Of a stretch of 64,000 bases of DNA, positions 2,278 to 64,000 are shown piece after piece. The DNA comes from Thauera propionica (GTDB taxonomy: Bacteria; Pseudomonadota; Gammaproteobacteria; Burkholderiales; Rhodocyclaceae). Both the position numbers and the translations under genes were made by a program. The stretch's first letter is position 1. Each line of letters opens with the position of its first letter. The notes beneath the pieces are model-generated. The model saw only the letters and a program-made list of their open reading frames with translations. It searched no databases and was not told the origin of the DNA. Location: contig NZ_NOIH01000010.1 in the NCBI RefSeq assembly GCF_002245655.1, positions 62,001-126,000 of the forward strand, written 5' to 3'.

Positions 2278-2317
2278 CGCGCGATAAAAGTGAGCCTGAT
2301 GGCGTTGGGAACGGTTT

Positions 2318-2347
2318 TTGACGGGCTCGTCACGAAGGCGCCATAAT
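2318..2347 (+). promoter_or_regulatory. Sigma-70 promoter for pepA
   Basis: TTGACG (2318-2323) and CATAAT (2342-2347) are separated by 18 bp, a strong match to the sigma-70 consensus. Transcription would start near 2354, giving a leader of about 36 nt before the pepA ATG at 2390. Confidence 0.7.
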
Positions 2348-2389
2348 CGGCGGCAGTCCGCAAGACGCGTCATTCCAAGGAAAAAGCTG

Positions 2390-3889: not shown

Positions 3890-3903
3890 GCCCCGGCACG
3901 ACG

Positions 3904-4344
3904 ATGGACACCCGCGTCCAGTTCTACCACAACGCACCGGACCGGCTCGCGCTGGTCTCGGAACTGGTCGCGCGTGCTCACGGAAAGGGACGCAAGGTGG
4001 CCGTACGCATGCCCGACGCCGCCAGTGCCCAGCAACTCGACCGCCTGCTGTGGACGAGTGAACCGCTCGCCTTCGTCCCGCACGTGATGCTCGACTCCCC
4101 GCTCGCGGCCGAAACGCCGGTGGTGCTCGGCACAGCGGGCGCCGACGCGGACTGGCCGCATGGCGACACCCTCTTCAACCTCGCGCCGGATCTGCCGCCT
4201 GCCTACGACCGCTTCCGTCTCGTGATCGAGATCGTGGGGCAATCCGAGGCCGAGAAGGTCCCGGCGCGCGCCCGCTGGAGTGCCTATCGCCAGCGCGGAC
4301 TCGAGACCAAGGCCTTCGACGCCGAACGCCGGGTGGCCCTATGA
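3904..4344 (+). CDS. holC: DNA polymerase III chi subunit HolC
   Basis: HolC (chi) belongs to the DNA polymerase III clamp-loader assembly, where with psi it contacts single-strand-binding protein. The 146-aa product matches the family: an N-terminal VQFYHN strand, a ...RMPDAASAQQLDRLLW... helix, and the LFNLA and Y-R-RG segments near the C-terminus. It sits between pepA and valS, a recurring order in proteobacteria. Its stop overlaps the next start (ATGA at 4341), so the downstream hypothetical gene is probably translated from the same mRNA. Confidence 0.93.
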   Translation: MDTRVQFYHNAPDRLALVSELVARAHGKGRKVAVRMPDAASAQQLDRLLWTSEPLAFVPHVMLDSPLAAETPVVLGTAGADADWPHGDTLFNLAPDLPPAYDRFRLVIEIVGQSEAEKVPARARWSAYRQRGLETKAFDAERRVAL

Positions 4345-5018
4345 ACGAATGGAAGCCCTTGCCGCACGACGAGGACCTCGAACGCGCCGACGACCTGCTC
4401 GATCAGGCTGACGCGCTGCTCAGGCGGCATCGCAGCACGATCGACTTCACCCCCGGCGCTCCATTCCACGATGCAGGTCGAGACCAGCCGTCCGAGAGCG
4501 ACCTGGAAAGCCTGGACCTCGAGGACGAAGACCTGCCGATCCTCACCGAGGTCGTGGAAGACCTCGAGATCGCAGACGACTGGCACCCGCCAATCAACGC
4601 CAGGCCGCTGGATTTCGGCCCCATCGCCCCGCCGGCGCTCACGCCAGTCGCCCCGGGATCGCACCCGCCGCCTGCTGCCGCGACCGAGTCCGCCGCGCCG
4701 CACTCGCCCGAGCCGCAAGCTGCGCCGGCTGTCGCTTCGCCGGATGTGTCGGCCGCCCTGCTGCGGGAACAGATCCACGAGCAGCTATCGCACCAGTTCG
4801 CCGAACAGCTCGTCGACCTCGACACCCGCATCGCGCGCGAGGTCAGCAACTGGATGGCCACCGAGTTCCCCCAGGTCGTCGGGCGTGAGCTCGACCGCCT
4901 CGTCGAGCGCCTGCATATCGAGTTGCAGGCGCACCTGCGCGCCACCCTGCTCCCGGATCTCTCGGGACGTATCAGCGAAGTGCTCGAGGACATCCAGTCG
5001 CCCCTGAAGCGCCACTGA
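4341..5018 (+). CDS. Hypothetical protein, Pro-rich linker
   Basis: A 225-aa protein that I do not recognise by family. The N-terminal third is acidic and helical (runs rich in D, E and L). The middle (about residues 95-135) is a low-complexity Pro/Ala/Ser segment, probably disordered. The last 90 residues are predicted amphipathic helix with regularly spaced hydrophobics. No signal peptide or membrane segment is visible. It overlaps holC by 4 nt, so it is co-translated with the chi subunit. A role linked to replication or to pepA/holC is only an inference from position. Confidence 0.8.
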   Translation: MNEWKPLPHDEDLERADDLLDQADALLRRHRSTIDFTPGAPFHDAGRDQPSESDLESLDLEDEDLPILTEVVEDLEIADDWHPPINARPLDFGPIAPPALTPVAPGSHPPPAAATESAAPHSPEPQAAPAVASPDVSAALLREQIHEQLSHQFAEQLVDLDTRIAREVSNWMATEFPQVVGRELDRLVERLHIELQAHLRATLLPDLSGRISEVLEDIQSPLKRH

Positions 5019-5120
5019 GCAACTCCCTTCCCCCGCCGCAAACCAGGGCACCCGCCCCTGCCCGGCCGCGTGCGGGCGAAGCTGCGCCACGCACACACCG
5101 GGGCCGGCAGGCGCATCCGC

Positions 5121-5148
5121 TATAATCCGCGCTTTGCCTTCAAGCGCG
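5121..5148 (+). promoter_or_regulatory. valS -10 element and leader hairpin
   Basis: A perfect TATAAT lies at 5121-5126, 32 bp before the valS ATG; no clear -35 box is seen 17 bp upstream. Just downstream, CGCGCTT (5128-5134) and AAGCGCG (5142-5148) can form a 7-bp hairpin at the 5' end of the leader. Confidence 0.5.
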
Positions 5149-5157
5149 TAGAACACC

Positions 5158-8142: not shown

Positions 8143-8147
8143 GGCAA

Positions 8148-8279
8148 CGCCTGCTTGCTTCCGGCGTGCGCCGAGGCAAGCAGGCGGCGGCCGGGGTATT
8201 CGTGGCGCAGGCGAGGACTGTCTGAGCCCGCAGGGCGAGTTCCGCAGACTGCAGAACGAATACCCCGGCCGCCGCCTGC
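8148..8279. repeat. Nested palindromic (REP-like) element
   Basis: Several nested inverted repeats fill the region after valS. An 11-bp hairpin has arms 8148-8158 and 8176-8186. A perfect 24-bp repeat has arms 8180-8203 and 8256-8279. Inside its 52-nt loop are GTCTG/CAGAC (8220-8224, 8245-8249) and GCCC-GCA-GGGC (8226-8236). The first hairpin and the 24-bp stem share 8180-8186, so they are mutually exclusive. The layout is that of a dispersed palindromic element; whether other copies exist cannot be seen here. Confidence 0.75.
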
Positions 8280-8306
8280 GATTAACCCGAGATCGCCGTA
8301 AACAAG

Positions 8307-8341
8307 AAACGGGCTGCCCGACTTAACGTGGCAGCCCGTTT
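8307..8341. terminator. Bidirectional terminator between valS and the TusA-like gene
   Basis: A 12-bp perfect stem (8307-8318 with 8330-8341) closes an 11-nt loop. The arms end in AAA/TTT. It lies between two convergent genes and probably serves mainly the minus-strand TusA-like gene. Confidence 0.7.
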
Positions 8342-8369
8342 CACATCCAACGCAGAAAGCGCGAAATTC

Positions 8370-8600
8370 TTATTTCCGCTTCAGGAAGAACTCGAACGCC
8401 TTGTCCGCCGTCTCGCCCTGCTTCAGCAATTCATTGCCGGTCTGCTTGGCGAACGCCTGGAAATCCTTCACCGAACCCGGATCGGTCGCCACGACGCGCA
8501 GCACCTGACCCGCCTGCATCTCGGCCAGCGCCTTCTTCGCACGCAGGATCGGCAGCGGGCAATTCAGGCCACGCGCGTCCACTTCCTTCTCGAAATTCAT
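8370..8600 (-). CDS. TusA/SirA-family sulfurtransferase-like protein
   Basis: A 76-aa cytosolic protein of the TusA (SirA/YeeD) family. It has the family signature DARGLNCPLPILRAKKAL near the N-terminus, with the sulfur-carrying Cys at residue 14 in a CPxP motif. Family members carry persulfide sulfur for tRNA thiolation, molybdenum-cofactor or dissimilatory sulfur pathways. The proximity of moaC and a W-enzyme operon makes a molybdopterin-related role possible, but this is inference. The gene appears monocistronic and is followed by a strong terminator. Confidence 0.9.
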   Translation of the reverse strand: MNFEKEVDARGLNCPLPILRAKKALAEMQAGQVLRVVATDPGSVKDFQAFAKQTGNELLKQGETADKAFEFFLKRK

Positions 8601-8702
8601 CCCTTGCTCTCTCCGTTATCGGTATCTGGGAAAAGACGGCATTCTAATGGATGCCCCCCACAGCCGAAAGACGCACCCGCCGCAAACGCCCCGCGCCGGG
8701 CA

Positions 8703-10136
8703 TCAACCCTCGCGCTCCCTGCGTTCCTCCAGCAGGCGCTGCTTCAGTTCGCGCATGCGCGCATCGACCGCCGACAATTCATAGAAATCCCCGTCTCCCG
8801 CCTTGCGCGCGATCTCCAGCTGCTCGATCGCCGCCGGCAGGCTGCCGCGCAGCAGATAGACTTCGGCCTGCGCACGATGCTGCGCAGTACGCTTGCCCAG
8901 CGCCGCATAGCCCCGCGACAGCAAGGCCCACAGGCGCGGATCGCCCTGGCGGTTGTCGAGCGCACGACGCACGCCCTCGACTGCCGCACCGGGCTGGCCG
9001 CCCAGGATGCGCGCGTCGGCGAGGGAATACACCAGGCTGCGGTTCGACGGGAAATCGCGTACCGCAGCCTCGAGCGTACGGATGGCGCCGACGCCGTCCT
9101 TGCGCGCCAGTCGGATGCCCGCCTCCAGCGTGTCCAACCAGGGCGAGGGCGGCGCCTTCGCCCGCACGGCCTCGAGGCGCTTTGCCGCCTCATCCAGCCG
9201 CCCGGCTCGGAACAGCGCACGCGCCAGCCCGTAACCGGCCGCCGGATCGTCCGGCGCCTGCGCGACAAGGTTCTCCATGTCCCTCACCGCGTCCGCCGCC
9301 TGGCCGGCGTTGGCACGCAACTTGGCACGCGCATAACCGAAGTCCGGTGAATCAACGACCTGACGGTAACGCATCGACGCCGCACGGTTCTCCATGTCGG
9401 CGATGCGTTCCGTGGTCAACGGGTGGGTGCGCAGATAGGCCGGCGCATTGTTCTCGTACATGCGTGTCGCACGCTGCAAGCGCTCGAAGAAGCCGGGCAT
9501 GCCGCGCACGTCGAAGCCAGCGTTCTCCAGCGTCTCCAGCCCGGCGCGGTCGGCCTCGCGCTCGAAGGCGCGTGTGTAGCCCAGTTGCGACTGGATCGCC
9601 CCCGCCTGGCCCGCCGCGATCGCCGCCTGGCTCACGTCCGAATTGCTGCGCGCCGCCAGCACCGCCACCAGCAGCGAGGCCATCATCAGCATCGCCGACT
9701 GGCTCTGCTTGCCGACGATCTGCGCGATATGGCGCTGCGTGACGTGCGCGATCTCATGCCCCAGCACCGAAGCGAACTCGGATTCGGTCTCCGCCGCCAG
9801 CAGCAGGCCGGTGTGCACGCCGATGAAACCGCCGGGCAGCGCGAAGGCGTTGAGCGTCGGATCATTGACGACGAAGAAATCGAAATCCAGGCCCGGATTG
9901 CTGCTCACCGCCGCGAGCTTGTGGCCGATGCGGTTGATGTACTCCTCCACCTCCGGATCATCCAGGTAGGCGGCATCGCGCCAGCGGATCTGGCTGATGA
10001 TCTGCTCGCCGATGCGGCGCTCGGCCGCCGGCGAAAGCTCGGATGCCGCCACGTCGCCCAGGTCGGGCAGATCGTAGGCGTTGACGGGAAAGGCCAGCGC
10101 GAGGCTGAGCAGCAGGGCAAGAGGTCGGCGCATCAT
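8703..10136 (-). CDS. bepA: Periplasmic M48 metalloprotease/chaperone BepA
   Basis: BepA-like proteins act in the periplasm as zinc proteases and chaperones in outer-membrane assembly (LptD maturation, BAM quality control). The 477-aa product has an N-terminal signal peptide ([20 protein letters not shown]), a family M48 domain with the zinc motif HEIAH at residues 127-131 and a downstream EREAD glutamate, and a C-terminal TPR-like region from about residue 270. Length and order match the family. The two Met codons at the start are equivalent. It is divergent from moaC. Confidence 0.93.
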
Positions 10137-10143
10137 CGGGTGC

Positions 10144-10149
10144 TATGAT
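10144..10149 (+). promoter_or_regulatory. Candidate moaC -10 box
   Basis: TATGAT at 10144-10149 lies about 100 bp before the moaC ATG at 10249, just past the bepA start. A convincing -35 is not seen. It is the only -10-like hexamer I noticed in this GC-rich gap. Confidence 0.35.
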
Positions 10150-10248
10150 ACCCGCCGTTTCCAAAGCGTTCCCGCGCGCATGTATCCGCCTGTAGCGGGC
10201 GCCGGGAAGCGCCCTCCCCCAGCGCCTGCGAGCGAATTCCGAAGCACC

Positions 10249-10737
10249 ATGACCGCACCCTCCCCCAATCCGCTGACCCATTTCGATGCCGATGGCCAGG
10301 CCCACATGGTCGATGTCGGCGGCAAGTCCGAAACGCGCCGCGTCGCCGTCGCCACCGGCCGCATCCTGATGCTGCCCGACACCTTCGCCATGGTCCGCTC
10401 GGGCACGGCGAAGAAGGGCGACGTGCTCGGCATCGCCCGCATCGCCGCCATCCAGGCATCCAAGCGAACCAGCGAGCTGATCCCGCTGTGCCACCCCATC
10501 CCGCTCACCCGCGTGGCGGTCGAGTTCGAACTCGACGACGCCGAGCACGCGGTACGCTGCACCGTCACCGCCGAAACCGTCGGCCGCACCGGGGTCGAGA
10601 TGGAGGCGCTGACCGCGGTGAATGTCGGCCTGCTCACGATCTACGACATGTGCAAGGCGGTCGATCGCGGCATGCGCATGGACGGCATCCAGTTGCTGGA
10701 AAAGCTCGGCGGCAAGTCGGGGCACTGGCGGGCCTGA
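10249..10737 (+). CDS. moaC: Cyclic pyranopterin monophosphate synthase MoaC
   Basis: MoaC acts with MoaA in the first step of molybdopterin synthesis, converting the MoaA product (3',8-cyclo-GTP) to cyclic pyranopterin monophosphate. The 162-aa protein has the family motifs ...[15 protein letters not shown] near the N-terminus, PLCHPIPLT in the middle and the [11 protein letters not shown] / YDMCKA segment, which carry the active-site His and Lys/Asp residues. The start at 10249 gives the family N-terminus; an upstream in-frame extension runs into the promoter. Its position beside tungstate transport and AOR genes suggests it supports the W-pterin enzyme as well as Mo enzymes. Confidence 0.95.
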
Positions 10738-10753
10738 AGCACCCGGCGCAGGC

Positions 10754-10999
10754 TCAGGCTGCATCCTCGTCGCGCTGCGCCAGGCGCGACATCACGAGCG
10801 GAAACGCACCCGACCCCGCCAGGGCGATCGCCGACACCAGAAAGGCGAGCCCCGCCATGGGGTCGGCGAGCGCCGGATGCAGGCGTGCCCCTTCTCCAGC
10901 GAAGCACGCCACCGCAGGCAGCAGGCACAGCCCGGCCAGCATGAAGAGCACGCGCGCAGTCAGCGGCACAGGACGGCGGTTCACAGTCTCATCCGCCAT
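10754..10999 (-). CDS. Small two-TM membrane protein
   Basis: An 81-aa protein with two hydrophobic segments (about residues 14-35 and 46-70) separated by a short loop, and a charged C-terminus. I do not recognise the family. The ATG at 10999 lies 19 nt inside the 3' end of the preceding ABC-ATPase gene, so it is likely translationally coupled as the last gene of the tungstate transporter operon. Its C-terminal coding region converges with moaC, 16 bp away. An accessory role in the transporter is only suggested by position. Confidence 0.6.
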   Translation of the reverse strand: MADETVNRRPVPLTARVLFMLAGLCLLPAVACFAGEGARLHPALADPMAGLAFLVSAIALAGSGAFPLVMSRLAQRDEDAA

Positions 11000-31204: not shown

Positions 31205-32396
31205 GCGCGAGGCGGCGGCACTGCTGCGCCGCCGGCGTGTGGCCGCCTCGCCCTGCGCGCCCCTGCAGACCGTCGAGGACGGACGGGGCCGCTCGCGCCA
31301 ACTGCTGAATTTCGGCAGCAACGACTATCTCGGCCTCGCCAGCCACCCCGTCATCGCCGCGGCACTGGCCGAAGGCGCGCAGCGCTGGGGCGCAGGCAGC
31401 GGGGCGTCGCATCTGGTCACCGGCCACAGTCTGGCCCATGCCCGGCTTGAAGGCGAACTGGCGCGGCTGCTCTCACCTTGGGTGCCGGACGCGGCGGCGT
31501 TGCTGTTCTGCAGCGGGTTCATGGCCAACCTGGCGCTGCTCACCACGCTCGGCGACGGCGAGGCCGCAATCTTCGCCGACAAGCTCAACCACGCCTCGCT
31601 GGTCGATGGCGGTCTGCTCGCCGCCGCCCGCATGCGGCGCTATCCGCATGGCCGGCTCGACCTGCTCGACGCCATGCTGCGCGACTGCGAGCAACCGATC
31701 CGGCTGATCGTCACCGACGCGGTGTTCAGCATGGACGGCGACATCGCGCCCCTGCCCGCACTGCTGGAACTGGCCGAACGCCACGACGCCTGGCTGATCA
31801 TCGACGACGCTCACGGCTTCGGCGTGCTCGGTCCGAACGGAGAAGGCGCGCTGGCGCATTACGACCTGAGCAGCACGCGCCTGATCTACATGGGCACGCT
31901 GGGCAAGGCCGCCGGCGTCGCGGGCGCTTTCGTCGCCGCCCATCCGGCCATCGTCGATGCGCTGGTGCAGAGTGGGCGCAGCTACATCTACACCACCGCG
32001 ATGCCGCCGGCGCTGGCGCATGCGTTGAGCGCCAGCCTGAAGCTGATTACCGGCGAGGAAGGCGCGTCACGGCGGCGACAGCTCGCCACGCTGACGGCTG
32101 CGCTGCGTGACCGCCTGTCCGGCTTGATCGCCCGCGACCCGGGCAGAGGCTGGCAACTGGCGGATTCCGCCACGCCCATCCAGCCGCTGATCGTCGGCGA
32201 CAATGCCGCCGCGCTGGCGCTGGCTTCGACGCTCGACGCGGCAGGCCTGTGGGTGCCTGCGATCCGCCCGCCCACCGTGCCGGCCAATACGGCGCGGCTG
32301 CGCATCACGCTCAGCGCGGCGCACACGCTGGACGACGTCGAACGCTTATCCACAACACTGGCCGCATGCCGGCCCGGGGGGAACGGCCATGCATAA
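31170..32396 (+). CDS. bioF: 8-amino-7-oxononanoate synthase BioF
   Basis: BioF condenses pimeloyl-ACP (or -CoA) with L-alanine to give 7-keto-8-aminopelargonate, with PLP. The 408-aa product shows the alpha-oxoamine synthase signatures: NFGSNDYLGLASHP near residue 48, GSGASHLVTGHS, the cofactor-binding DDAHGFGVLG and the PLP Lys in YMGTLGKAAGVAG near residue 250. It overlaps both neighbours (35 nt with bioA, 8 nt with bioH), so translation is coupled. Which pimeloyl donor is used follows from BioC/BioH in the same operon, which indicates pimeloyl-ACP. Confidence 0.96.
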   Translation: MLLAHLTRRRLEREAAALLRRRRVAASPCAPLQTVEDGRGRSRQLLNFGSNDYLGLASHPVIAAALAEGAQRWGAGSGASHLVTGHSLAHARLEGELARLLSPWVPDAAALLFCSGFMANLALLTTLGDGEAAIFADKLNHASLVDGGLLAAARMRRYPHGRLDLLDAMLRDCEQPIRLIVTDAVFSMDGDIAPLPALLELAERHDAWLIIDDAHGFGVLGPNGEGALAHYDLSSTRLIYMGTLGKAAGVAGAFVAAHPAIVDALVQSGRSYIYTTAMPPALAHALSASLKLITGEEGASRRRQLATLTAALRDRLSGLIARDPGRGWQLADSATPIQPLIVGDNAAALALASTLDAAGLWVPAIRPPTVPANTARLRITLSAAHTLDDVERLSTTLAACRPGGNGHA

Positions 32397-33120
32397 GCAC
32401 CTGATCCTGCTGCAGGGCTGGGGTCTGGGTAGCGCGCCGCTGGCACCGCTGGCCGAAACCCTGCGCGTGCTCGATCCGATGCTGCGGGTGGACATCGAAC
32501 CCCTGCCCGAACGGGCCAGTGGCGACCCGCGGGATTGGCTGCAGGAACTGGACGAGCGCCTTCCGCCGCAGACCTGGCTGGGCGGCTGGTCGCTCGGCGG
32601 CATGCTCGCCAGTGAACTGGCGGCGCTGCGCGGCGAACGCTGCCGCGGCCTGCTGACCCTGGCCAGCAACCCACGTTTCGTGGCGGGCGCCGACTGGTCG
32701 CACGGGATGGGCGAGGTGACCTTCAACGCCTTCGTCGAGGGCTGCCGCGCCGATCCCGCCGCCACCCTCAGACGCTTCTGCCTGCTCTGCGCGCAGGGTT
32801 CGGTGGAAGCCCGCGGCTTGGCGCGCCAACTGCAGGCCGCGGTGTCCGAGGCCGCGCCACAGGTGCTGCTGGCCGGACTGCAGGTACTCGGCAGCCTGGA
32901 TGGGCGCAGTGCGCTGCAAGGCTTCGCCGGGCCGCAGTTGCACCTGTTTGCCGGTGCCGACGCCCTGGTGCCAGCCGAGGTGGCCGGCGACCTGCTGGCC
33001 TTACGGCAGAACACCGGGATCGGGCTGATCGAGGACGTCAGCCACGCCTTCCCGCTGGAACAGCCAGGCGAGGTCGCGGCGGCGATCCAGGCCTTCATCG
33101 GCGGGGACGGCGATGCTTGA
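32389..33120 (+). CDS. bioH: Pimeloyl-ACP methyl ester carboxylesterase BioH
   Basis: BioH removes the methyl group from pimeloyl-ACP methyl ester, ending the BioC/BioH route to pimelate. The 243-aa alpha/beta hydrolase has the oxyanion-loop LLQGWGLGS near the N-terminus, the nucleophile in [10 protein letters not shown] (Ser near residue 70), and the catalytic His in [10 protein letters not shown] near the C-terminus. The ATG at 32389 overlaps the end of bioF; the long upstream in-frame region is bioF in another frame. It overlaps bioC by 8 nt. Confidence 0.92.
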
Positions 33121-33907
33121 GCAACTGCCTGTCGTACCGGACAAGCGTCGGGTGGCCGCCTCCTTCTCCCGTTCGGCGGGCAGCTACGACGCGGTCGCCT
33201 CGCTGCAGCGCCAGGTTGGTGCACAGTTGCTGGCGCGCCTTCCGCATCTGACCTCCCCCCGCTGGCTCGACCTGGGCTGTGGCACCGGACACTTCACCCG
33301 GCTGCTGGCCGAGCGCTTCGGCGCCGATTCGGGCGCGGCCCTGGATCTGGCCGAAGGCATGCTGCACCATGCCCGACCCCGGGGCGGTGCGCGTCATTTC
33401 ATCGTCGGCGATGCCGAGGCCCTGCCGCTGCGCGACGCCAGCCTGGACCTGATCTACTCCAGCCTCGCGGTGCAGTGGTGTGGCGACTTCGCCGCCGTGC
33501 TGGGCGAGGCGCAGCGGGTGCTGCGGCCCGGCGGCGTACTGGCCTTCAGCAGCCTGTGCGCGGGCACCCTGGGCGAACTGCGCGACAGCTGGCGGGCGGT
33601 GGACGGCTTCACCCACGTCAACCGCTTCCGCGCATTCCGCGACTACGAGACCTTGTGCGCGGAAAGCGGGCTCGAGGTGAGCACGCTTGAACGCCGGGCG
33701 CAGACGCTGCACTTTACCGACCTGCGTGCGCTGACCCGTTCGCTCAAGGATCTCGGTGCGCACAACCTCAACCCCGGTCGTCCGGACGGGCTCACCAGTC
33801 CGGCGCGGATCCGCGCGCTGGCCGCTGCGTACGAGCGCTTGCGCACTCCCGAGGGTTTGCCGGCCACCTATCAGGTGGTGTACGCCGTTCTGAACAAGCG
33901 CCTGTAA
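33113..33907 (+). CDS. bioC: Malonyl-ACP O-methyltransferase BioC
   Basis: BioC methylates malonyl-ACP so that the fatty-acid synthesis enzymes can elongate it to pimeloyl-ACP methyl ester. The 264-aa class I SAM methyltransferase begins with the BioC-type [16 protein letters not shown] segment, followed by the SAM motif [11 protein letters not shown] near residue 48 and the [12 protein letters not shown] segment typical of BioC. Start overlaps bioH, as expected for a coupled pair. The gap to bioD is 91 bp, the only sizeable gap in the operon. Confidence 0.94.
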
Positions 33908-33998
33908 GGGCCCGCAATAGAGGATGAAGGAACATGAGCCGAGCCCCGCGCCATCGTCCAGGTTTCAACGCTTTCATCGAATTTCGGGAGACGCCGTA

Positions 33999-34724
33999 AT
34001 GGTCCGTGGCTGTTTCATCACCGGCACCGACACCGAGATCGGCAAGACCACCATCGCCGCCGCCATCGTCAGCCTGCTGGGCAAGACCGGGCTGCGCGTC
34101 GCCGGACTGAAGCCGGTCGCCGCCGGCATGAGTGCGATCGATGGCGAGCGCATCAACGAAGACGTCCATGCGCTGCGTGCGGCGAGCAGTGTGCCACTCG
34201 GCGTCGATGAGATCGCGCCTTTCCAGTTCGAGGCCGCCTGCGCGCCGCACGTCGCCGCGGCGCTCGAAGGTCGCAGCATCGACCGCGACCGCATACTCGC
34301 GACCATCCAGGCTGCGGCGGCGCGCTGCGACCGGGTGGTGGTCGAAGGCGTCGGCGGTTTCCGCGTACCTTTCGACGCCGCCGGCGACTGGGACAGCGCC
34401 GACCTGGCACGCGACCTGGGCCTGCCGGTGCTGCTGGTCGTCGGCCTGCGCCTGGGCGCGATCAACCATGCCCTGCTCACCGCCGAAGCCGTGCGTGCGC
34501 GCGGACTACGGCTGTGCGGCTGGGTCGCCAACACAGTCGACCCGGCCATGGCCCAGGCCTCCGCCACGATTGATGCCCTGACCGTCGGGCTGGGCAATGC
34601 GCCCTGCCTGGGCCTGGTGCCCCGCCTGCCGGCACCGTCACCCGAAGCCATCGCCCCGTACCTGAACGTGCCCGCGCTGCATCACCTTTTCGATTCCGAT
34701 TCCACCCTCAAGGAGAGCCCATGA
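33999..34724 (+). CDS. bioD: Dethiobiotin synthetase BioD
   Basis: BioD closes the ureido ring of dethiobiotin from 7,8-diaminopelargonate, CO2 and ATP. The 241-aa protein has the N-terminal P-loop [13 protein letters not shown], the GLKPVAAG segment and the [13 protein letters not shown] motif near residue 110. The ATG at 33999 has GGGAG 8 nt upstream; an in-frame start at 33924 would add 25 residues without family similarity. The stop overlaps the bioB start (ATGA). Confidence 0.95.
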
Positions 34725-39155: not shown

Positions 39156-39221
39156 GCCTGCCGGCCGGGCCGCGCCCGCCGCGCGGCCCGGCGCCATTTC
39201 TTCCACGAAGGAGTCCCCGCA

Positions 39222-39689
39222 ATGAAGACCCGCATCCTCAACGGCGCACTCGCCGCCGCGCTCGCTGTAACGGTCGCCGGCAGCGCCCTGGCCGCCGACC
39301 GCGGCACGCCGGCCGAAGCCCGCGCCATGTTCGACCAGGCCGTGCAGTACATGGAGACAAACGGCGCCGAACGCGCCTTCGCCGCCTTCAACAACCAGAA
39401 AGGCCAGTTCGTCCGCAAGGACCTGTACGTGTTCGTGATCGACGACCAGGGCGTCTACCACGCCAGCGGCGCCGCGCCCGAGGCGCTGGTCGGTCTGAAG
39501 GTGCTCGACACCACCGACGCCGCCGGCACGCCACTGTTCCGCGAGATGATCGACGCCACGCGCAAGGCGCCCGAAGCCACGGTGCGCTACGTATGGCTGA
39601 ACCGGACCACCAACAAGGTCGAGCCCAAGGCGAGCTACGTGCGCAAGATCGGCGACTACGTGCTCGGTGTGGGGCACTACCTCGAATGA
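39222..39689 (+). CDS. Periplasmic single Cache-domain protein
   Basis: A 155-aa exported protein: signal peptide to about residue 24 (SALA-A), then a Cache_2-like sensory fold (helix AEARAMFDQAVQYME, strands LYVFVIDDQGVYHAS, and the C-terminal KIGDYVLGVGHYL). Free-standing Cache proteins bind small carboxylates or similar ligands in the periplasm. There is no kinase or methyl-accepting domain. Its place between the quinoprotein and SoxYZ-like genes, overlapping the latter by 4 nt, suggests a role in the same alcohol-oxidation module; ligand unknown. Confidence 0.85.
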   Translation: MKTRILNGALAAALAVTVAGSALAADRGTPAEARAMFDQAVQYMETNGAERAFAAFNNQKGQFVRKDLYVFVIDDQGVYHASGAAPEALVGLKVLDTTDAAGTPLFREMIDATRKAPEATVRYVWLNRTTNKVEPKASYVRKIGDYVLGVGHYLE

Positions 39690-51843: not shown

Positions 51844-54489
51844 ATGTCGTTCAGCCGCCGCGCCTTTCTGAAGTCCACCGCCGCCTTCGCCGTCGCCAGC
51901 GGCGGGCTCAAGCTGTTCGGGGTCCACGAGGTGTTCGGCGCGGACACCGTGCTGATCCCCCACGCCTCGCACTACGGCCCGTTCAAGGCGGTGGTGAAGA
52001 ACGGGGTCCTGGTCGGCGTGCAACCGCTGAAGCACTTCGACCCGATGCCCACGCAGATGCTGCTCGAAGGGGTGCTGAGCCGCACCTACCACCCGACCCG
52101 GGTGCAGTATCCGATGGTGCGCCGTTCCTACCTCGCCAACCCGCGCGGCGACATCAAGGGGCATCTGCGCGGCAAGGAACCCTTCGTGCGCGTGTCGTGG
52201 GAAGACGCGCTCGCGCTGGTCGCCGACGCCAGCCTGCGCACGATCGAGCAGCACGGCAATGACGCGGTGTTCAGCTCGTCCTACGGCGGCTGGTCGCACG
52301 CCGGCGTACTGCGCCCGCAGGTGCTGCAGGGGCGGCTGTTCGGCCTCATCGGCGGCCACAGCGTCACCACCGGCGACTATTCCGGCGGCGCCTCGCAGGT
52401 CAGCCTCCCGCACATCATCGGCGACATGGAGGTGTACTCACCGCAGACGTCCTGAGAAGTGATCCGCGACCACACCGAGGTCTTCGTGCTGGTCGGTTGC
52501 GACCCGTGGAAGAACAACCGCATCGAATACACGGTGGCCGACCACCAGATGTACTCGCGCTGGGAGGCAATCCGCGATGCCGGCGTGAAGTTCGTGTCCA
52601 TCAACCCGCAGCGCACCACCACCGACGAGGCCATGCGCGCCGAGTGGGTGAAGATCATCCCCAACACCGACACCGCGCTGTTCCTGGCGATGTGCTGGCA
52701 CGTCTATACCACAGGCAAGTACGACAAGACCTACCTCGACAAGTACACGGTGGGCTTCGACAGGTTCCTGCCTTACCTGCTCGGCAAGGACGCCGACGGG
52801 ACCCCGCCCAAGACGCCGGAATGGGCCGCGAAGATAACCGGCATCCCGGCGGCGAAGATCGTCGAGATGGCCGACCTCTTCGCCAGCAAGCGCACGGAGT
52901 TCGCCGGCGCGTGGTCGCTGCAGCGCGCCCACCACGGCGAGATGACGCACTGGGCGATCATCGCCTTCGCCGCCATGACCGGCAAGATCGGCAAGCCGGG
53001 CGAAGGCGTGGGCTTCTCCTGGCACTACGGTGGTGGCGGCATGCCGGTCTCCGGCAAGCGTGGCGCGGTGGGCATTCCGCAGGGGCGCAACCCGGCCAAG
53101 GGCCGCTGCCCGGCCTCGCGCATCTCGGAGATGCTGCTCAACCCCGGCAGGCCCTACACCCGCGATGGTGCGAACTTCACCTTCCCCGACGTGCACATGA
53201 TCTACAACGCCGGCAACAACTTCGTCCATCACCAGCAGAACACCAACGAGCTGATCGAGGCGATGGCGAAGAAGGTGCACACCGTGGTGAACCAGGACCC
53301 GTGGTGGTGCGCCTCTTCGCGCTACGCCGACATCGTGCTGCCGGCCACCAGCCACCTCGAGCGCAACGACATCAGCACCGGCGGCACCTACAGCAACGAC
53401 AAGATCTGGGCGATGCGCCAGGTGATCCAGCCCTACGGCGAGAGCCTGGACGACTTCGAGATCTTCCGCCGCCTGGCCGAACTGTTCGGCGTCGAATACG
53501 GCTTCACCGAAGGCCTGACGGTGATGGACATCGTCAAGAACAGCTACGCCAGCACCGACGCCACGATCCCGTTCGAGGAATTCTGGGAAACCGGCGTGGC
53601 CGAGATGGAAGTGCCCGAGGCCGCCCGGCGCTGGGTGCGCCATGGCGATTTCTACGCCGACCCGGTCAAGAACCCGCTGCACACCGCCACCGGCAAGATC
53701 GGCCTGTATGTTGAAGCCTTCGAGCGCTTCGGCACCAAGGAATGCCCGCCGATCCCGAAGTACCTCGAGCCGGCCGAGTTCCTCGGCAACGCCAAGCCGG
53801 GCCAGGTGCATGTGGTCAGCCCGCACCCCTTCATGCGCGTGCATTCGCAGATGGCCAACGCCGAATGCTCGAAGCACCTCAACATCCAGGGCCGCGAATT
53901 CGCGCTGGTGAGCGAGGAGGACGCGCGCGAGCGCGGCGTCAAGGACGGCGACCTGATCGAGGTCTACAACGATCGCGGCGCGGTCATCGTCGGCGCCCGG
54001 GTGTCGCCCAACATCATGAAGGGCGTGATCAGCATCTACGAAGGCGCCTGGCTGTCGAAGGACAGCAAGGGCCGCTGCAACAGCGGCGCGATCAACGTGC
54101 TGACCACGAGCGTGGCGGCGAGCGACCTCAGCCAGGCCACCAGCGCCAACACCTGCCTCGCCTCGTTCCGCAAATGCACCGACGCCGAAGGCCCGAACCG
54201 CGCTTACGAGCCGCCGGTGGTCGAGAACAGCACAGCCCGCATCGAAGCCGCCGCACTGAGCCTCACCGAGCGCGCGCAGAAGGCCAAGGCCGCCTCCACC
54301 GCCGGCCTGACGCCGGGTGAAAAGCTCTTCTACGAGCGCTGCACGCTGTGCCACGTGCCGCGCGAACCGGGCGACTACACCGTGAAGCAGTGGCACGGCA
54401 TCACCGAGAGCATGTTCCCGCGCGCAGGCCTGACCGACGACGAGCGCAAGCTGGTGCTGGAATTCCTCGAGAAGAACGCGAAGAAGTAA
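51844..54489 (+). pseudogene. torA: TorA-type molybdopterin reductase with in-frame TGA and C-terminal haem-c domain
   Basis: One frame of 882 codons including the final stop, interrupted at codon 204 by TGA (52453-52455). The parts are 51844-52455 and the downstream frame, open from 52456 to 54489. The product is a periplasmic DMSO/TMAO-reductase-type enzyme: Tat signal SRRAFLK, the SSYGGWSHAG region, and the Mo-ligand Ser in TGDYSGG (S180). After the TGA come VLVGCDPWKNN, the SLQRAHHGEMTHW segment and a C-terminal haem site CTLCH (C833, C836, H837) like the TorC C-terminal domain. In TorA and DorA, as I recall, the residue after QQTS or QQTA is Trp, so TGG to TGA fits. Selenocysteine or an assembly error remain possible. 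torT, torS and torR follow. Confidence 0.85.
52467..52495 (+). other. SECIS-like stem-loop after the in-frame TGA
   Basis: The stem CGACCA (52467-52472) with TGGTCG (52490-52495) continues as CA(C)CGA with TCGTG(C), giving 11 pairs, two bulged C and the loop GGTCT (52479-52483). The loop begins 23 nt after the TGA, within the usual bacterial SECIS range, and AGGTCT matches the apical part of the E. coli fdhF element. It lies within coding DNA of high GC content, so chance folding is likely enough to require a test. Confidence 0.4.
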
Positions 54490-54529: not shown

Positions 54530-54564
54530 GGCGCCGGCCCGGTCCTCAAGGCCGGGTCGGCGCC
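54530..54564. terminator. Stem-loop at the convergent torA/torT ends
   Basis: GGCGCCGGCCCGG (54530-54542) pairs with CCGGGTCGGCGCC (54552-54564), one mismatch, and overlaps the torT stop codon. No T-tract on either strand, so any termination would be weak or factor-dependent. Confidence 0.4.
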
Positions 54565-55664
54565 ACTTCGTAGACCGGCACGAAGCCCGCCGGCGGCAGC
54601 ATCCAGTGCGCCGGGAAACGCTTCAGCGTGGCGGCATCGACCAGTTCCACGCCGGGGCCGACGTGAGGTTCGATCTCCATGCCTTCCAGCGCGCGCAGCG
54701 CCTGCCGTACCGCCATGCGCCCCTGCAGCACCGGAAAATCGCTGACCGACACCAGGATGCGCCCGCGCAGCAACCCGCTATACACGCCGGGCGTCACGTA
54801 GGACGACACGATGCCGACCTCGCCCTCGCGAGCGCGCCGCCGCAACTCGGCAATCGCCGCCTCCGCCATCGGTGCGTTGCCCACCAGGTAATCGAGCCGG
54901 GAATGGGCGTCGAGGACCTCCTCGACCAGCTGGCGCTGGATCGAGCGCCCGGTATCGCCGCCGCGCACCGCGACGATGCGCACCGCGCTGTCCGCGATCG
55001 CGTCGCGAAAGCCACGGTCGATGAAGTCCACCCAGCCCGCATCCTGCGGCCCGGGCAGCCAGGCGATGTCGGCCCCGGCGGACCCCGCCGGGTGGCGCTC
55101 GGCCAGCCAGCGGCCGATCTTCCAGCCGAGCTGGTACCAGGGCACGCCGACCTTGCCCTGCACCGCGCTGGCGTCGATGTCGTTCACCAGGGCCAGCACC
55201 GGCCGCCGCGCCGCCTCGGGCGCGAGCAGGTCGTTGAGGCCGGCGTAGCTCACCGTGCCCACCAGCAGCGCATCGCTGCCTTCGTCCGCAAGGCAGGCGC
55301 GGACGCGCTCGCGCTGGCGCTCGAGATGCTCGTAGCCGGCCGACTCGAGCACCTGCAGGCCCAGGCCCAGCGCACGCGCCTCCTCCACCATGCCGAAGTT
55401 AACCGCCAGCCAGTAGCTGTCCTTCAGGTGCGGATAGACGGCGCACAGCCGCCACGGCCGCGACGCCGCGACATGCTCGAAGATGCCCGACGCCTGCCCT
55501 GCGCCTTCCGGCGCGCGCTGGTCGCCGCGCCAGCGCTCGACGGGCCAGCGCTCGACGGGCCAGCGCTCCGCCAGCCAGTCGGCGTACCCTGCCGCGGGGG
55601 ACGCCAGCGCGGCGGACGAGACGACACCTGCGGCGAAGAGCGTCGCAAGCAGCGCGGTTTGCAT
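54546..55664 (-). CDS. torT: Periplasmic TMAO-binding protein TorT
   Basis: A 372-aa periplasmic binding protein of the TorT type, which binds TMAO and contacts the sensor kinase TorS. A signal peptide (MQTALLATLFAAGVVSSAALA) begins at 55664; the family WRLCAVYPHLKDSYWLAVNFGMVEEARALG segment follows, and the type-1 binding-protein fold fills the rest. The ATG at 55664 was chosen over one at 55733, which would extend into the torS start. Near residues 33-45 the 5-residue unit PVERW is repeated in tandem from a 15-bp repeat. Divergent from torS, convergent with the torA-like gene. Confidence 0.9.
   Translation of the reverse strand: MQTALLATLFAAGVVSSAALASPAAGYADWLAERWPVERWPVERWRGDQRAPEGAGQASGIFEHVAASRPWRLCAVYPHLKDSYWLAVNFGMVEEARALGLGLQVLESAGYEHLERQRERVRACLADEGSDALLVGTVSYAGLNDLLAPEAARRPVLALVNDIDASAVQGKVGVPWYQLGWKIGRWLAERHPAGSAGADIAWLPGPQDAGWVDFIDRGFRDAIADSAVRIVAVRGGDTGRSIQRQLVEEVLDAHSRLDYLVGNAPMAEAAIAELRRRAREGEVGIVSSYVTPGVYSGLLRGRILVSVSDFPVLQGRMAVRQALRALEGMEIEPHVGPGVELVDAATLKRFPAHWMLPPAGFVPVYEVAPTRP
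55531..55568. repeat. 15-bp tandem repeat within torT
   Basis: CAGCGCTCGACGGGC occurs at 55531-55545 and 55546-55560, followed by a partial copy (CAGCGCTC) to 55568. In frame it repeats Pro-Val-Glu-Arg-Trp. It may expand or contract by slippage without changing frame. Confidence 0.85.
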
Positions 55665-55750
55665 CACCCGGCGGGCACCTCGCCGGTAAGATGAGGGCCA
55701 GCCCGGTCTGGCAAGGGCACGAAGCGGATCCACGACGACATCACCTCAAT

Positions 55751-58708
55751 ATGGACGCCCCATCTTACGTGAAAGCCCCGCCACGGCGCCGCTTCGGCCT
55801 GCGCGAACGGCTGATGCTCGGCCTGCTGCTCGGGGCGCTGGGCACGATCATCGTCGCCGTCGTCGGCTGGGCCAGTTTCCAGCGCGTGGTCGACAGCCAG
55901 CAGATCATCGTCCGCGAGACCCTGCCCACCGCCGACGCCCTGCACGACGCGGTGCGCGGCAACGCCCGCCTGGCCGCCCTGGCCCCGCGCCTGGCGCGCG
56001 CCGACACGACCGGCGAACTCGCGCAGCTGCGCGCGACCCTGGACGCCGAGCTGCCACTGATCCGCGACCGCCTCGCGCGGCTCGACTCGCCGCACGTCGA
56101 ACCCGAGTTGCGCGCGCGCCTGCAGGCAACCGGCGACACCCTGGCCGCCCGCCTCGGCATCATGGCCGACACCATCGCGGCCCGCCTGCAGGTTCGCGAC
56201 GCACGCCTCGCCGCCACACACGCCCTGCGCGACAGCATCGACGAGCTCGATGCGCTCGCACGGGCGCAGACCGACAACGCCATCGCCCTGCTGGTGTCGA
56301 CGCTGACCATGCTGCTGCAGGCCGGGACGGGCGCCCCCTCGACGCCAGCCCCCCCAACCGATCGCGCGACGGCAAGCGACCGCCTGCTCGACGTCGACCT
56401 CGACACCCTCGAGCGCATGCATGAACTCGTGCTCACCGCCCACGCCCTCGGCAGCCTCGTCGACCGTCTCGACGAAGTCGACACCCCTGCACGGCTGCAG
56501 GAGGCGCGTACCGCGTTCGACACCCAGCTTGCCTTGCTGGCGCGCCGGGTGCGCGACGTCGCCGACCCGGGTGCCCGCGCGCAGGGCGAGACGCTGCACG
56601 CCGCGCTCGCCGGCGCGACGGGGCCTGGCGGCGCCTTCGACATGCGCGGTGCAGAACTTGAACTGCGCGCCCGCAGCGACGCCTCCCAGGCCGAGGTCGG
56701 TAAGCTGACCACCGAACTCGACGCGCTGGCCGGCGAGCTCATCCATCGTGGCGGCCGCATCCTCGCCGAAGCAGGCCTGAGCGCCGAGCGCAGCGCCAGC
56801 TCCGGCGTGCTGGCCTTCGGCGTGATCGGCGCCGCGCTGTTGCTGGTCACGGCACTGGTCCTCGTCCAGGTCCTGCGCCGGCACACCCTCGGCCGCCTGC
56901 TGGCGCTGGAGGAGGCGACGCTGGCGCTGGCCGGCGGCAAGCGCGACGTGCGCATCGACACCGACGGCGACGACGAACTGGCTTCGCTGTCCCGTGCACT
57001 CGCCCGCTTCCGAGACGACGCCATCGAACGCGACCAGCTCGCTGCCGCCCTGCGCGTGCAGCAACAGCAACTGGAGCACGAGGTCGCCGCCCGCACCGCC
57101 GAGCTGCGCGACAGCAATGCCGCACTGGCGCGCGAAACCGCCGAGCACGCCGCGGCGCGCCTCACCGCGGAGAAGGCCGACCACGCCAAGACCGCCTTCC
57201 TCGGCACGGTGAGCCACGAGCTGCGCACGCCGATGGCGGGCATCCTCGGCCTGCTGGAATTGCTCGACGACACCCGCCCTGCGCCCGGGCAGCAGAAGTA
57301 CCTCGAGCAGATCCGCTCCGCCGCGGTCCTGCTGCTCGAGCTGCTGGAGGACATGCTGGACTTCGCCCGCATCGAGGCCGGCGGGGTGCAGGTGGAGAAC
57401 ACGCCCTTCAGCCTGCGCGACACGGTCAACGACGTGTTTGCGGTGCAGGGCACGCGGGCGGCGTCGCGCGGCCTGGCGCTGGTGGCCGACATCGCCCCCG
57501 GCGTGCCCGACGCCCTGCTCGGCGACCGGCGCAAGCTCAGCCAGATCCTGCTGAACCTCGTCGGCAACGCGATCAAGTTCAGCGACGAAGGCGCCGTCAC
57601 CGTGCATATCGCACCGGGCATCAGGCCCGATGGCCTGCGCTTCGCGGTGCAGGACCACGGGATCGGCATCGACCCGGCGCGCCAGCGCGAGGTGCTCGAA
57701 CCCTTCGTGCAGGTACGCGACAGCGGCCGCCACCACGGCGGCACCGGCCTCGGCCTGGCGGTGTGCAAGCGCCTGATCGAAGCCATGGGCGGCGAGATCG
57801 CCATCGACAGCGCGCCCGGGCAAGGCACGACGGTGAGCTTCGAGCTCACCTTCGCGCCGGCGCCGGCGCCCGCCGAGGCAAGGGCCAGCGCATCGTCGGC
57901 GCATCTGGCGCCAGGACACAGCGTGCTGGTGGTGGAAGACGACGCCGTCAACCGCATGGTGGTCGAGCGCTTCCTGCAGGCGCTCGGCCAGCATCCGCTG
58001 TGCGCCGGCGACATCCAGGCCGCGCTCGCTGCCGTTGGTCGGCAGGTGCCGGACCTGGCCCTCGTGGACATGAACCTGCCGGACGGCGACGGCCGCGAGT
58101 TGCTGACACGCCTGCGCGCCCTGCCCGGCGTGCCACAGCTGCCCGCTGTGCTGATGTCCGCGCACGTGCCAGCCAGCGAAGTCCAGGCCCTTCTCGACGC
58201 CGGTTTCGCCGCCTTCCTGTCCAAACCCTTCTCGCGCGCACAACTGCAGGCCCTGCTCGCACGGCTGCTGGGCGACGGCGCGGCGCCAGCGCCCGTCCCG
58301 CACACCCGCGACGCGGTGCCATCGGACGCAACGGATACGCCACCGCCGGACCGGGTCAGCGAAGACTTCCTGCGCGCCGAACAGGCGGCGCTCGGCGAAG
58401 CGGTGCTCGGCCAGATCGCCGCGGTATTCGAATCGCAGGGCGATGCGCTGATCGACGCGCTGCTTGCCGCCGCGCACGCGGGCGATGCGGAGGAATGCCG
58501 CAAGCTGGCGCACAAGCTGCGCGGCGCGGCGTCAAACCTCGGGCTGGAAGGCCTCCGGGCGCAGGCGGGTGGCCTGGAACAGGACCTGCTAGGCGCGGCG
58601 CCCGACCTCCGCCTGCCCGATCGCGCCCGTGCGCTGCAGCAGACCTACCACGACACCGTCGAGGCGCTGCGAGCCACGCTGGCCCGGCTGGCTGAAGGCA
58701 GATCCTGA
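55751..58708 (+). CDS. torS: Hybrid sensor kinase TorS
   Basis: A 985-aa membrane hybrid histidine kinase for TMAO sensing through TorT. Order: first membrane helix (about residues 25-45), a long periplasmic sensor region, second membrane helix (about 355-375), HAMP, coiled coil, phospho-acceptor domain with His489 (VSHELRTP), ATPase domain with DHGIGID and GTGLGLAV, receiver domain with Asp773 (LVDMNLPDGDG), and C-terminal HPt with His921 (LAHKLRGAASNLG). This three-step phosphorelay is the TorS architecture. The ATG at 55751 is preferred to 55691. torR is convergent with a 5-bp gap. Confidence 0.92.
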   Translation: MDAPSYVKAPPRRRFGLRERLMLGLLLGALGTIIVAVVGWASFQRVVDSQQIIVRETLPTADALHDAVRGNARLAALAPRLARADTTGELAQLRATLDAELPLIRDRLARLDSPHVEPELRARLQATGDTLAARLGIMADTIAARLQVRDARLAATHALRDSIDELDALARAQTDNAIALLVSTLTMLLQAGTGAPSTPAPPTDRATASDRLLDVDLDTLERMHELVLTAHALGSLVDRLDEVDTPARLQEARTAFDTQLALLARRVRDVADPGARAQGETLHAALAGATGPGGAFDMRGAELELRARSDASQAEVGKLTTELDALAGELIHRGGRILAEAGLSAERSASSGVLAFGVIGAALLLVTALVLVQVLRRHTLGRLLALEEATLALAGGKRDVRIDTDGDDELASLSRALARFRDDAIERDQLAAALRVQQQQLEHEVAARTAELRDSNAALARETAEHAAARLTAEKADHAKTAFLGTVSHELRTPMAGILGLLELLDDTRPAPGQQKYLEQIRSAAVLLLELLEDMLDFARIEAGGVQVENTPFSLRDTVNDVFAVQGTRAASRGLALVADIAPGVPDALLGDRRKLSQILLNLVGNAIKFSDEGAVTVHIAPGIRPDGLRFAVQDHGIGIDPARQREVLEPFVQVRDSGRHHGGTGLGLAVCKRLIEAMGGEIAIDSAPGQGTTVSFELTFAPAPAPAEARASASSAHLAPGHSVLVVEDDAVNRMVVERFLQALGQHPLCAGDIQAALAAVGRQVPDLALVDMNLPDGDGRELLTRLRALPGVPQLPAVLMSAHVPASEVQALLDAGFAAFLSKPFSRAQLQALLARLLGDGAAPAPVPHTRDAVPSDATDTPPPDRVSEDFLRAEQAALGEAVLGQIAAVFESQGDALIDALLAAAHAGDAEECRKLAHKLRGAASNLGLEGLRAQAGGLEQDLLGAAPDLRLPDRARALQQTYHDTVEALRATLARLAEGRS

Positions 58709-58713
58709 AGGCT

Positions 58714-58719
<6 letters not shown>
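58703..58719. other. Hairpin containing both torS and torR stop codons
   Basis: TCCTGAA-GGC-TTCAGGA: the TGA of torS and the complementary TGA of torR lie in opposite arms. A compact 7-bp hairpin at a convergent gene end; it may act as weak terminator. Confidence 0.55.
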
Positions 58720-59460
<741 letters not shown>

Positions 59461-59476
59461 GGTGTTGCCTTTCGAA

Positions 59477-59497
59477 CGGTAAGACCCAATCTTACCG
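59477..59497. promoter_or_regulatory. Operator-like inverted repeat upstream of torR
   Basis: CGGTAAGA (59477-59484) and TCTTACCG (59490-59497) around CCCAA, centred 27 bp before the torR ATG (minus strand, 59460). It could be an autoregulatory site or a leader hairpin. Confidence 0.5.
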
Positions 59498-59528
59498 ATT
59501 AAGCGCCGCGCCGACGTCCCCGCGCGAC

Positions 59529-60877
<1,349 letters not shown>

Positions 60878-60881
<4 letters not shown>

Positions 60882-62686
60882 GCTGCTGTTTCCTCGGTCG
60901 ATTGTCGGGCTTCAGGCGCAAGCGGCCAGCTCGCCCGCATCAGCGCGCCGCCGCCCGGGCGATCCAGCACCTCGAGCCGTCCCCCCGCGGCCTCGACCAG
61001 GTCGCCGACGATGGACAGGCCCAGGCCCAGCCCCTGGCCCAGCGGCTTGGTGGAAAAGAAGGGTTGCAGGATGCGGTCGCGCACTTCGGCGGCGATGCCC
61101 GGCCCATTGTCCGCCACTTCGAGACACAGGCGCCCGCCCGCCACGCGCGTGCGCAGCTCGATCAGCCCGTCAGCGCGGCCGGCCAGCGCATCGAGCGCAT
61201 TGCCGACCAGGTTCGAAAGCACCTGCTCCAGCGCCTGTGGCTGCAGCGGGAACTGCAGGCCCGCATCGTCGACGACGAGGCGCACGCCGGCCTTCGCCAG
61301 ACGCTCGCGGAACCAGCCCGCCACCACCTCCATCGCCTGCGCCGCCGGCGCGGTGCCACCGCTCGCCTGCTGGCGCGAGGCGAACACCTTGAGCTGCGAG
61401 GTGAGCCGCGCCATGCGCTCGACCAGACCGATGATCTGCTGCAGGTTGTCACGCAGCGCATCGAGCCGGCCACGCTCGAGGAAGGTCAGCGCATTGCCGG
61501 CGAAGCTGCGCATCGCCGCCAGCGGCTGGTTGATCTCGTGCGCGACACCGGCCGCCATCTGGCCGAGCGCGGCCAGGCGGTTGGCCTCGATCAGCGCGCG
61601 CTGCGCGCCGCGCAGCTTCTGTTCGGCCACGGTGCGTTCGGAGATCTCGCGCAGCAGTTGCTGGTTGCTCGCGGCGAGGTCGGCCGTGCGTTCGGCCACG
61701 GTGCGCTCGAGCTCGGCCTGCGCCGCAAGCCGCTCGCGCAGGCGGCGCACGCGCTGGCGCCAGTAGAGCCCGGCGGCCAGCAGGGCGCTCAGCACCAGGC
61801 ACACGCCGGCCACCGCCTGCCATGCCGCGGCATGCACGGGTCGGGTGTCCTGCAACATCAGCATGCGCCAGTCCAGCCAGTCGAGCGCGCGGCTGCCGAC
61901 CACGTACTCCGGACCGCCGAGGCGGGCGCGCTGGTCGTCCGTCCATTCCAGCGGCAAGGGGCGCAGCCCGGCCGTGTAGTACTGGCGCGTGGCCTGCAGC
62001 TCGCGCTGCGACACATCGTTCAGAGGCGCGAGCGTGCCGAACTTCCACGCGGCGTTCGAGGTCAGCGCGATCACGCCGTGGCGGTCGACGACCATCACCG
62101 CTTCGCCGCTGTCCGACCAGGTCTGTTCGAGCTGGGTGAGCTCCACCTTGACCGCGAGCACGCCGATCACGCCCTGCGGCCCCTGTACCGGATGGGCGAA
62201 GAAGAAGCCCGGCACCCGGGTGGTGGCGCCGACAGCGAAGAAGCGCCCCGCCCGGCCGGCCAGGGCATCGCGGAAGTAAGGGCGGAAGGCATAGTTCTCA
62301 CCGACGAAGGAGTCCGGCCGACGCCAGTTGCTCGCGGCCAGCGTGTTGCCGTCGGCGGCGATCAGATACAGCATACCGGCCCCGGCACGGTCGTTAACCT
62401 GCTCGAGCAAGGCGTTGGCGCGCCCGAGCAGGACCGGGTCCTGCGGATCGGCCAGCAGCGCCGGCAGCAGGGGGTGCTGCGCGAGCACCGAGGGCAGGCT
62501 CTCGAAACGCAGCAACTGCGCATCGAGGCTCGCCGACAGCAGGGCCAGGCGCTGCGCCGCATGGTGCGACAGCTCGTCGATGCCGGACTTGAGCCGGTAG
62601 GCGTGGGCCGCCCACGCCAGCGGCAGCACGAGCGCGAGCAGCGCCAGCGCGCGTGCGAGGGGGTGCCGGTGGGAGCGGCTGCTCAT
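60878..62686 (-). CDS. Sensor histidine kinase, DctB type
   Basis: A 602-aa membrane sensor kinase: short cytoplasmic N-terminus, first membrane helix (about residues 8-28), periplasmic double-Cache-like domain (YAFRPYFRDALAGRAGRFFAVG is the DctB dicarboxylate-binding type segment), second membrane helix (about 280-300), coiled coil, phospho-acceptor in GVAHEINQPLAAM and ATPase domain with DNGPGI and GLGLGLSIV. The ATG at 62686 was chosen; a longer in-frame extension overlaps the DUF1850 gene. Pair with the regulator downstream. A ligand related to carboxylates is inferred. Confidence 0.9.
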
Positions 62687-62702
62687 GCGGATGCGTCTCC
62701 GA

Positions 62703-63101
62703 TCAACGCGGCGGGCCAGGCGCCGCCGGGTCTGCGATTGTGCATGGGCGCAGCTCGGTGACGCCACCATCGGAAGGCAGCACGGCCGCCATCGGCCGGC
62801 ACGCGCCGGTCTCGTCGCACCAGTAGTAGTCGGCAGTGTGCTCGGAGCGCGTGAGACGCAGCCGCGCATGGCGCGTGCGCGGATGCCACACCCACACGCC
62901 GTCCTGCAGAACGGCGCCGGGGGGCGGCTCCATGCCGGCGCCGTGACCACGCACGCGCACGGCCTCGAGTACCAGCACCTCGCCTTCGACGCGCCAGCTC
63001 TCCTCCCAGCGCACGCGCTCGATCGAATGCGTCCACCCCAGCGTGAAGGCGTTTGCCGCCAGCGCCGCGGTGGCGACGCTGGTGGAGAGGCACACAGGCA
63101 T
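62703..63101 (-). CDS. DUF1850 protein of the TAXI-TRAP operon
   Basis: A 132-aa protein with a short hydrophobic N-terminus (signal-like), the FTLGWTHSIERVRWEESWRVEG segment typical of DUF1850, and the DYYWCDETGAC region with two Cys. DUF1850 genes regularly accompany fused TRAP transporters with TAXI binding proteins. Role unknown. It starts 13 bp after the TRAP gene and is followed by the kinase gene after 16 bp, so one operon. Confidence 0.85.
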   Translation of the reverse strand: MPVCLSTSVATAALAANAFTLGWTHSIERVRWEESWRVEGEVLVLEAVRVRGHGAGMEPPPGAVLQDGVWVWHPRTRHARLRLTRSEHTADYYWCDETGACRPMAAVLPSDGGVTELRPCTIADPAAPGPPR

Positions 63102-63114
63102 GATCAGGCCGCCG

Positions 63115-64000
<886 letters not shown>

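Follow-up and report, generated by a model that had tools for sequence, protein, structure and literature searches.

An in-frame TGA in a torA-like reductase gene of Thauera propionica is probably a recent nonsense mutation

Three kinds of described system bear on a gene of the DMSO reductase (MopB) family that carries a TGA within its reading frame: the TorA/BisC/DorA branch of that family, the formate dehydrogenases that contain selenocysteine (Sec), and the recent pseudogene that arises by a single nonsense substitution, which is a general kind of lesion. According to PMC10100899, the metal of formate dehydrogenases is coordinated by Sec or Cys, and the ligand in DorA/TorA is Ser. PMC12013277 states that homologues with Cys seem to exist for every known selenoprotein, and that bSECIS-like structures are predicted more often as GC content increases. 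The locus described here lies in a window of 64,000 nucleotides from Thauera propionica, which is the whole stretch of DNA analyzed and to which all coordinates refer. Its relevant features are as follows.

51844 to 54489, plus strand: torA-like molybdopterin N-/S-oxide reductase gene with one TGA inside and a C-terminal haem-binding (CxxCH) segment (ORF, Pfam, NCBIfam)
52453 to 52455, plus strand: in-frame TGA, codon 204 (ORF reading; all 63 distinct readable orthologues have TGG, Trp, here)
51844 to 52455, plus strand: short frame whose product, expected if the TGA is a stop, has 203 residues and a twin-arginine motif (ORF; motif read from the sequence)
52467 to 52495, plus strand: hairpin resembling a SECIS element, at chance level (folding, shuffles, orthologue comparison)
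54546 to 55733, minus strand: TorT-like periplasmic protein (scores above cut-off with both TorT models)
55691 to 58708, plus strand: TorS-like hybrid sensor kinase (TIGR02956, 587.3 bits; cut-off of 676.5 not reached)
58714 to 59460, minus strand: TorR-like response regulator (NF008034, 272.1 bits, just below the cut-off of 275)

The interrupted gene and its orthologues

The torA-like gene has 882 codons, the final TAA counted, and encodes 881 residues when the TGA is read through; after codon 204 a further 677 residues follow in the same frame, with no second in-frame stop. An earlier reading made from the sequence alone had reported a TGA at codon 204 of an otherwise open torA-like frame and a long downstream frame in agreement with the enzyme family, and both observations were borne out, the C-terminal CxxCH segment being present as well, but the A of the TGA, which had been placed at 52454, is one base further on, at 52455. 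The stop does not fall in a frame that is open by chance, because both of its flanks belong to one conserved protein. Near its start the protein has the sequence SRRAFLK, which we take to be a twin-arginine motif. In a Pfam search with the TGA read as Trp, PF18364, PF00384, and PF01568 exceed their curated cut-offs, and the best NCBIfam models are bisC_fam and TorA, both below cut-off (819.4 versus 1017.55 bits for bisC_fam and 598.1 versus 1465 bits for the TorA equivalog, TIGR02164). Residues 825–880 align with the final part of the TorC model (positions 325–380 of 387), so that the reductase ends in a CxxCH segment, at window positions 54260–54489, that resembles the end of TorC. In all 62 loci of the genome_contigs set a CxxCH motif is found less than 100 residues from where the match ends; their names are those of beta-, gamma-, and alphaproteobacteria, plus one Saprospiraceae MAG. 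The family and the TorTSR-like neighbors suggest that the substrates of the enzyme would be of the TMAO/DMSO class (N-/S-oxides).

Some match to the protein is present in 94 of the 101 genomes searched (its own and 100 relatives). The 12 orthologues from the same genus, which are 73–99% identical, are without internal stops, and codon 204 is TGG in each of them. It is also TGG in 61 of the 62 genome_contigs loci; the remaining one, L109, begins downstream of the codon and was dropped from the counts. As 10 of the 12 same-genus orthologues duplicate genome_contigs loci, there are 63 distinct readable orthologues (61 plus 2). The comparison of this codon in homologues, which the sequence-only reading had proposed as a check, gives Trp (TGG) in all 63, with neither a Sec (TGA) nor a Cys codon at position 204 in any of them. 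These counts leave out plasmid records, of which a separate search returned 29, the best gene-covering match among those listed having 73.2% identity over 96% of the gene. Six more distant relatives (36–40% identity), including the second torA-like frame of the same genome, were aligned, and TGG stands opposite codon 204 in all six. Stops were flagged by the homologue search in several matches of at most 40% identity. Four were inspected, with lower-identity matches and those lacking a locus left out (L041, L047, L039, and the paralogue in L119); each has a single stop 11–38 residues before the matched stretch ends and TGG facing codon 204, and these stops look like natural gene ends.

One target enzyme of the TorT/S/R-like sensing system encoded at 54546–59460 may therefore be missing. 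The genome contains a second torA-like gene, of 38% identity, on contig C55 (L119, G000:C55:414000-418500), which is uninterrupted over 839 codons of the matched stretch, where its only stop lies close to the end; CxxCH motifs are seen in another frame of this locus, which perhaps holds a torC-torA pair. Since a second gene of this type is present, the loss of the interrupted one may be tolerable.

Nonsense substitution or one-base error

The reading that we favor, and consider probable, is that a point mutation of very recent date has put a simple premature stop, the TGA, into a gene for a torA-like N-/S-oxide reductase. The mutation would have turned codon 204, TGG for Trp in relatives, into TGA, and translation would end after 203 residues, so that no complete enzyme would be made from this locus; the gene would be too young a wreck for further decay to have set in. 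From the evidence given here and below, we infer that base 52455 is real and that codon 204 is not read through.

The state of the rest of the gene can be judged from its nearest orthologue, in G017, whose protein is 99% identical. Between the two genes 83 codons differ, 14 of them non-synonymously with the stop counted, and the NG86 estimates are dN 0.0070 and dS 0.124 (dN/dS about 0.06), those from YN00 being dN 0.0058 and dS 0.44. When the residue changes are polarized with three outgroups, 5 fall on the lineage of the window (the stop included), 4 fall on that of G017, and 5 are ambiguous. Judged by these rates, the gene is otherwise conserved and under strong purifying selection relative to the G017 orthologue, with no relaxation of selection.

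The same observations bear on a second explanation, in which the TGA is a one-base sequencing or assembly error and the gene of the strain is intact, as in its relatives. An otherwise perfectly conserved gene under strong purifying selection is also what such an error would leave, which counts against certainty that a mutation occurred, and the assembly is a draft of 57 contigs (3.93 Mb, rated 100% complete). Signs of further errors were sought by comparing the window with 64 kb of G017, to which it is collinear only at about 11.0–32.3 and 34.0–59.5 kb. A first listing of stops over all G017 frames was dominated by antisense and off-frame ORFs, and was replaced by a third-position rule for coding frames (identity of 80% or more, 15 or more differences, and more than 60% of these at third positions) that kept 21 frames. 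Among these 21 there is no other convincing interior stop relative to G017; the other stops seen are confined to residues 1–17 of an open frame and to a 153-residue frame that overlaps a longer frame on the opposite strand. A frameshift scan against G017 gave a single candidate, at 39178. The frame concerned, 39168–39686, whose match spans only part of the query, was rejected as a broken gene: it reads out of frame over the end of a gene, and the one-base indel falls in the space separating two genes. A family search with both of its halves returned nothing over a cut-off.

As no other convincing interior stop or gene frameshift occurs in the collinear part, the assembly does not look rich in errors in this region, which argues against an error but is still compatible with a single one: an isolated one-base error at 52455 is possible, but its surroundings do not suggest it, and we regard this explanation as rather unlikely. 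Three explanations had been offered in the sequence-only reading, and two of them, a nonsense mutation and an assembly error, still stand, the third, a new Sec-containing TorA, being unsupported. The best reading of the evidence is thus a nonsense substitution, with a one-base error less likely, and nothing points to a new recoding event.

It should be noted that three parts of the window, 1–10990, 32340–34008, and 59474–64000, have no collinear counterpart in the 64 kb of G017 compared. The exceptions are an 89-base identical match at 10640–10728 and a 74% match at 60088–60373, both of which lie elsewhere in the G017 stretch.

Decoding of the UGA: selenium machinery, tRNAs, and the hairpin

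A search of the genome for selA, selB, selC, and selD, which had been proposed together with the Sec explanation, found SelD but not SelA, a SelB over cut-off, or a tRNA-Sec; the lack of selA, selB, and selC had been named in the sequence-only reading as speaking against Sec. The search gave no match to SelA and no candidate for it in this genome, and the same search detected SelA in 13 of the 29 genomes of the genus (this one included) with E values of 1.2e-157 or better. For SelB there are ten matches, all below the cut-off of 242.25 bits (best 108.9), and 13 of the 29 genomes have SelB over the cut-off. With RF01852, the tRNA-Sec model, one match (49.3 bits) exceeded the gathering score of 47 bits when the best 150 of 667 candidates from this genome were scored; it was rejected as selC because ARAGORN calls it tRNA-Ser(TGA). 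In another run, in which the best 100 of 675 candidates were scored, 15 of the 29 genomes had a match of at least 72 bits, and the two of these loci that were run in ARAGORN were both called tRNA-SeC(TCA). None of the 54 tRNAs that ARAGORN calls in the genome has the anticodon TCA (UCA); RF00005 has 55 matches there, leaving one weak match of 29.5 bits. SelD (426.2 bits) adjoins SelU on contig C55 and is therefore accounted for by tRNA 2-selenouridine without Sec. The genome has 13 stretches that match Fdh-alpha, two of which are pieces of the torA-like gene beyond its stop; an in-frame TGA is absent from all 13. By these counts the Sec trait is patchy in the genus, and of the selenium genes SelD and SelU alone were found in this genome.

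In G028, a stretch of about 3.3 kb takes in selA, selB, and selC, so that one gap in the draft could in principle hide all three. The nearest relative, G017, is assembled as one contig of 4.17 Mb, and it too lacks a SelA match, a SelB over cut-off (best 187.7 bits), and a selC match of at least 72 bits (best 47.5, by score alone, with the best 100 of 675 candidates scored). Of the 12 orthologues from the genus, eight come from genomes in which there is evidence of Sec machinery, and these still have TGG at codon 204: G002, G006, G013, G021, G026, and G028 have SelA and SelB, and G010 and G016 have a selC match of at least 72 bits and part of SelB, without a SelA match. The other four orthologue-bearing genomes (G003, G005, G017, and G027) are without such evidence. 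As TGG is found in the genomes with Sec evidence too, these orthologues do not use Sec at codon 204 even where it could be inserted.

UGA is a leaky stop, and it might be partly read through here by an ordinary tRNA such as tRNA-Trp, so that some full-length enzyme is made. A tRNA-Trp(CCA) is called in the genome by ARAGORN and the downstream frame is intact, but this intactness is explained by the recency of the mutation, no called tRNA has the matching anticodon, and none of the orthologues read has TGA at codon 204; readthrough is accordingly very improbable. More speculative still, and to be given hardly any weight, is decoding of the UGA at a low or regulated level, by near-cognate tRNA-Trp or by Sec machinery hidden in a gap, to yield a full-length TorA-like enzyme under translational control at codon 204.

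The hairpin to which the sequence-only reading had drawn attention is present as it was described, in its 11 pairs, two bulged C residues, GGTCT loop, and distances. When the 43 nt from the TGA onward are folded, they form a stem of 11 pairs that has a single unpaired C in either arm and is closed by a GGUCU loop, the spacing from the TGA being 11 nt to the stem and 23 nt to the loop. The energy of this fold is −11.1 kcal/mol, compared with a mean of −10.91 for shuffled sequences (z −0.07; 79 of 200 shuffles as good). When 60 nt from the TGA are folded another structure wins (z −0.01), and the 61-nt interval originally singled out folds worse than its shuffles (z +1.69). Under a loose SECIS-like rule of our own (at least 9 pairs, and a loop of 3–8 nt that starts 16–37 nt past the codon and has G in its first two bases), such hairpins follow 167 of 868 codon positions in the torA-like gene, about one in five, and 228 of 928, 54 of 456, 304 of 992, and 72 of 294 positions in four other large plus-strand ORFs (12–31%). 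Four matches appeared in an Rfam scan of 52300–52700 with E values of 10 or less; they fall far short of their gathering scores, and none overlaps the hairpin.

At the corresponding place in the 12 TGG orthologues of the genus, fold energies range from −7.3 to −15.0 kcal/mol, and 7 of the 12 fold at least as stably as the window. The same hairpin occurs in G003 and a close variant in G017; the others pair differently. Hairpins in TGG orthologues indicate that the structure goes with the coding sequence and is not tied to the TGA. The combination that had been named as speaking against Sec, TGG in homologues with no conserved stem-loop, is thus found in its first part, and the second is mixed: hairpins also occur in TGG orthologues, mostly with different pairings. 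The hairpin is of an ordinary kind that GC-rich coding sequence commonly forms by chance, and no SECIS hairpin beyond chance and linked to the TGA was found by shuffles, the loose rule, or the 12 orthologues. SECIS-like hairpins in GC-rich DNA are therefore weak evidence, as this gene illustrates.

The remaining explanation, a new member of the TorA family that contains Sec and depends on a SECIS element, which the in-frame TGA, a hairpin with a fitting distance and loop base, and the presence of SelD might suggest, is so improbable that we reject it on the machinery (SelA, SelB over cut-off, and tRNA-Sec not found in the draft genome), the homologues (Trp in every distinct readable orthologue, eight of them in genomes with Sec evidence), and the chance level of the hairpin.

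Comparison with described systems

The protein resembles the TorA/BisC/DorA branch of the DMSO reductase (MopB) family in its three Pfam domains, in having bisC_fam and TorA as its best models, and in its TorT/S/R-like neighbors, but differs in scoring below the cut-offs of both models and in having a C-terminal segment that is like the end of TorC. With the Sec-containing formate dehydrogenases it shares the superfamily and an in-frame TGA; in those enzymes, however, Sec or Cys binds the metal, whereas the position of the TGA in the window is Trp in the readable orthologues. If this UGA were decoded as Sec, it would stand at a conserved Trp position in an N-/S-oxide reductase and depart from the rule of Cys-containing homologues given in PMC12013277. 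The third comparison is with the recent pseudogene made by a single nonsense substitution. The locus, whose putative stop base is read from a draft assembly, agrees with that kind in having one stop and no other lesion in the gene, an unrelaxed dN/dS, and an intact orthologue whose protein is 99% identical.
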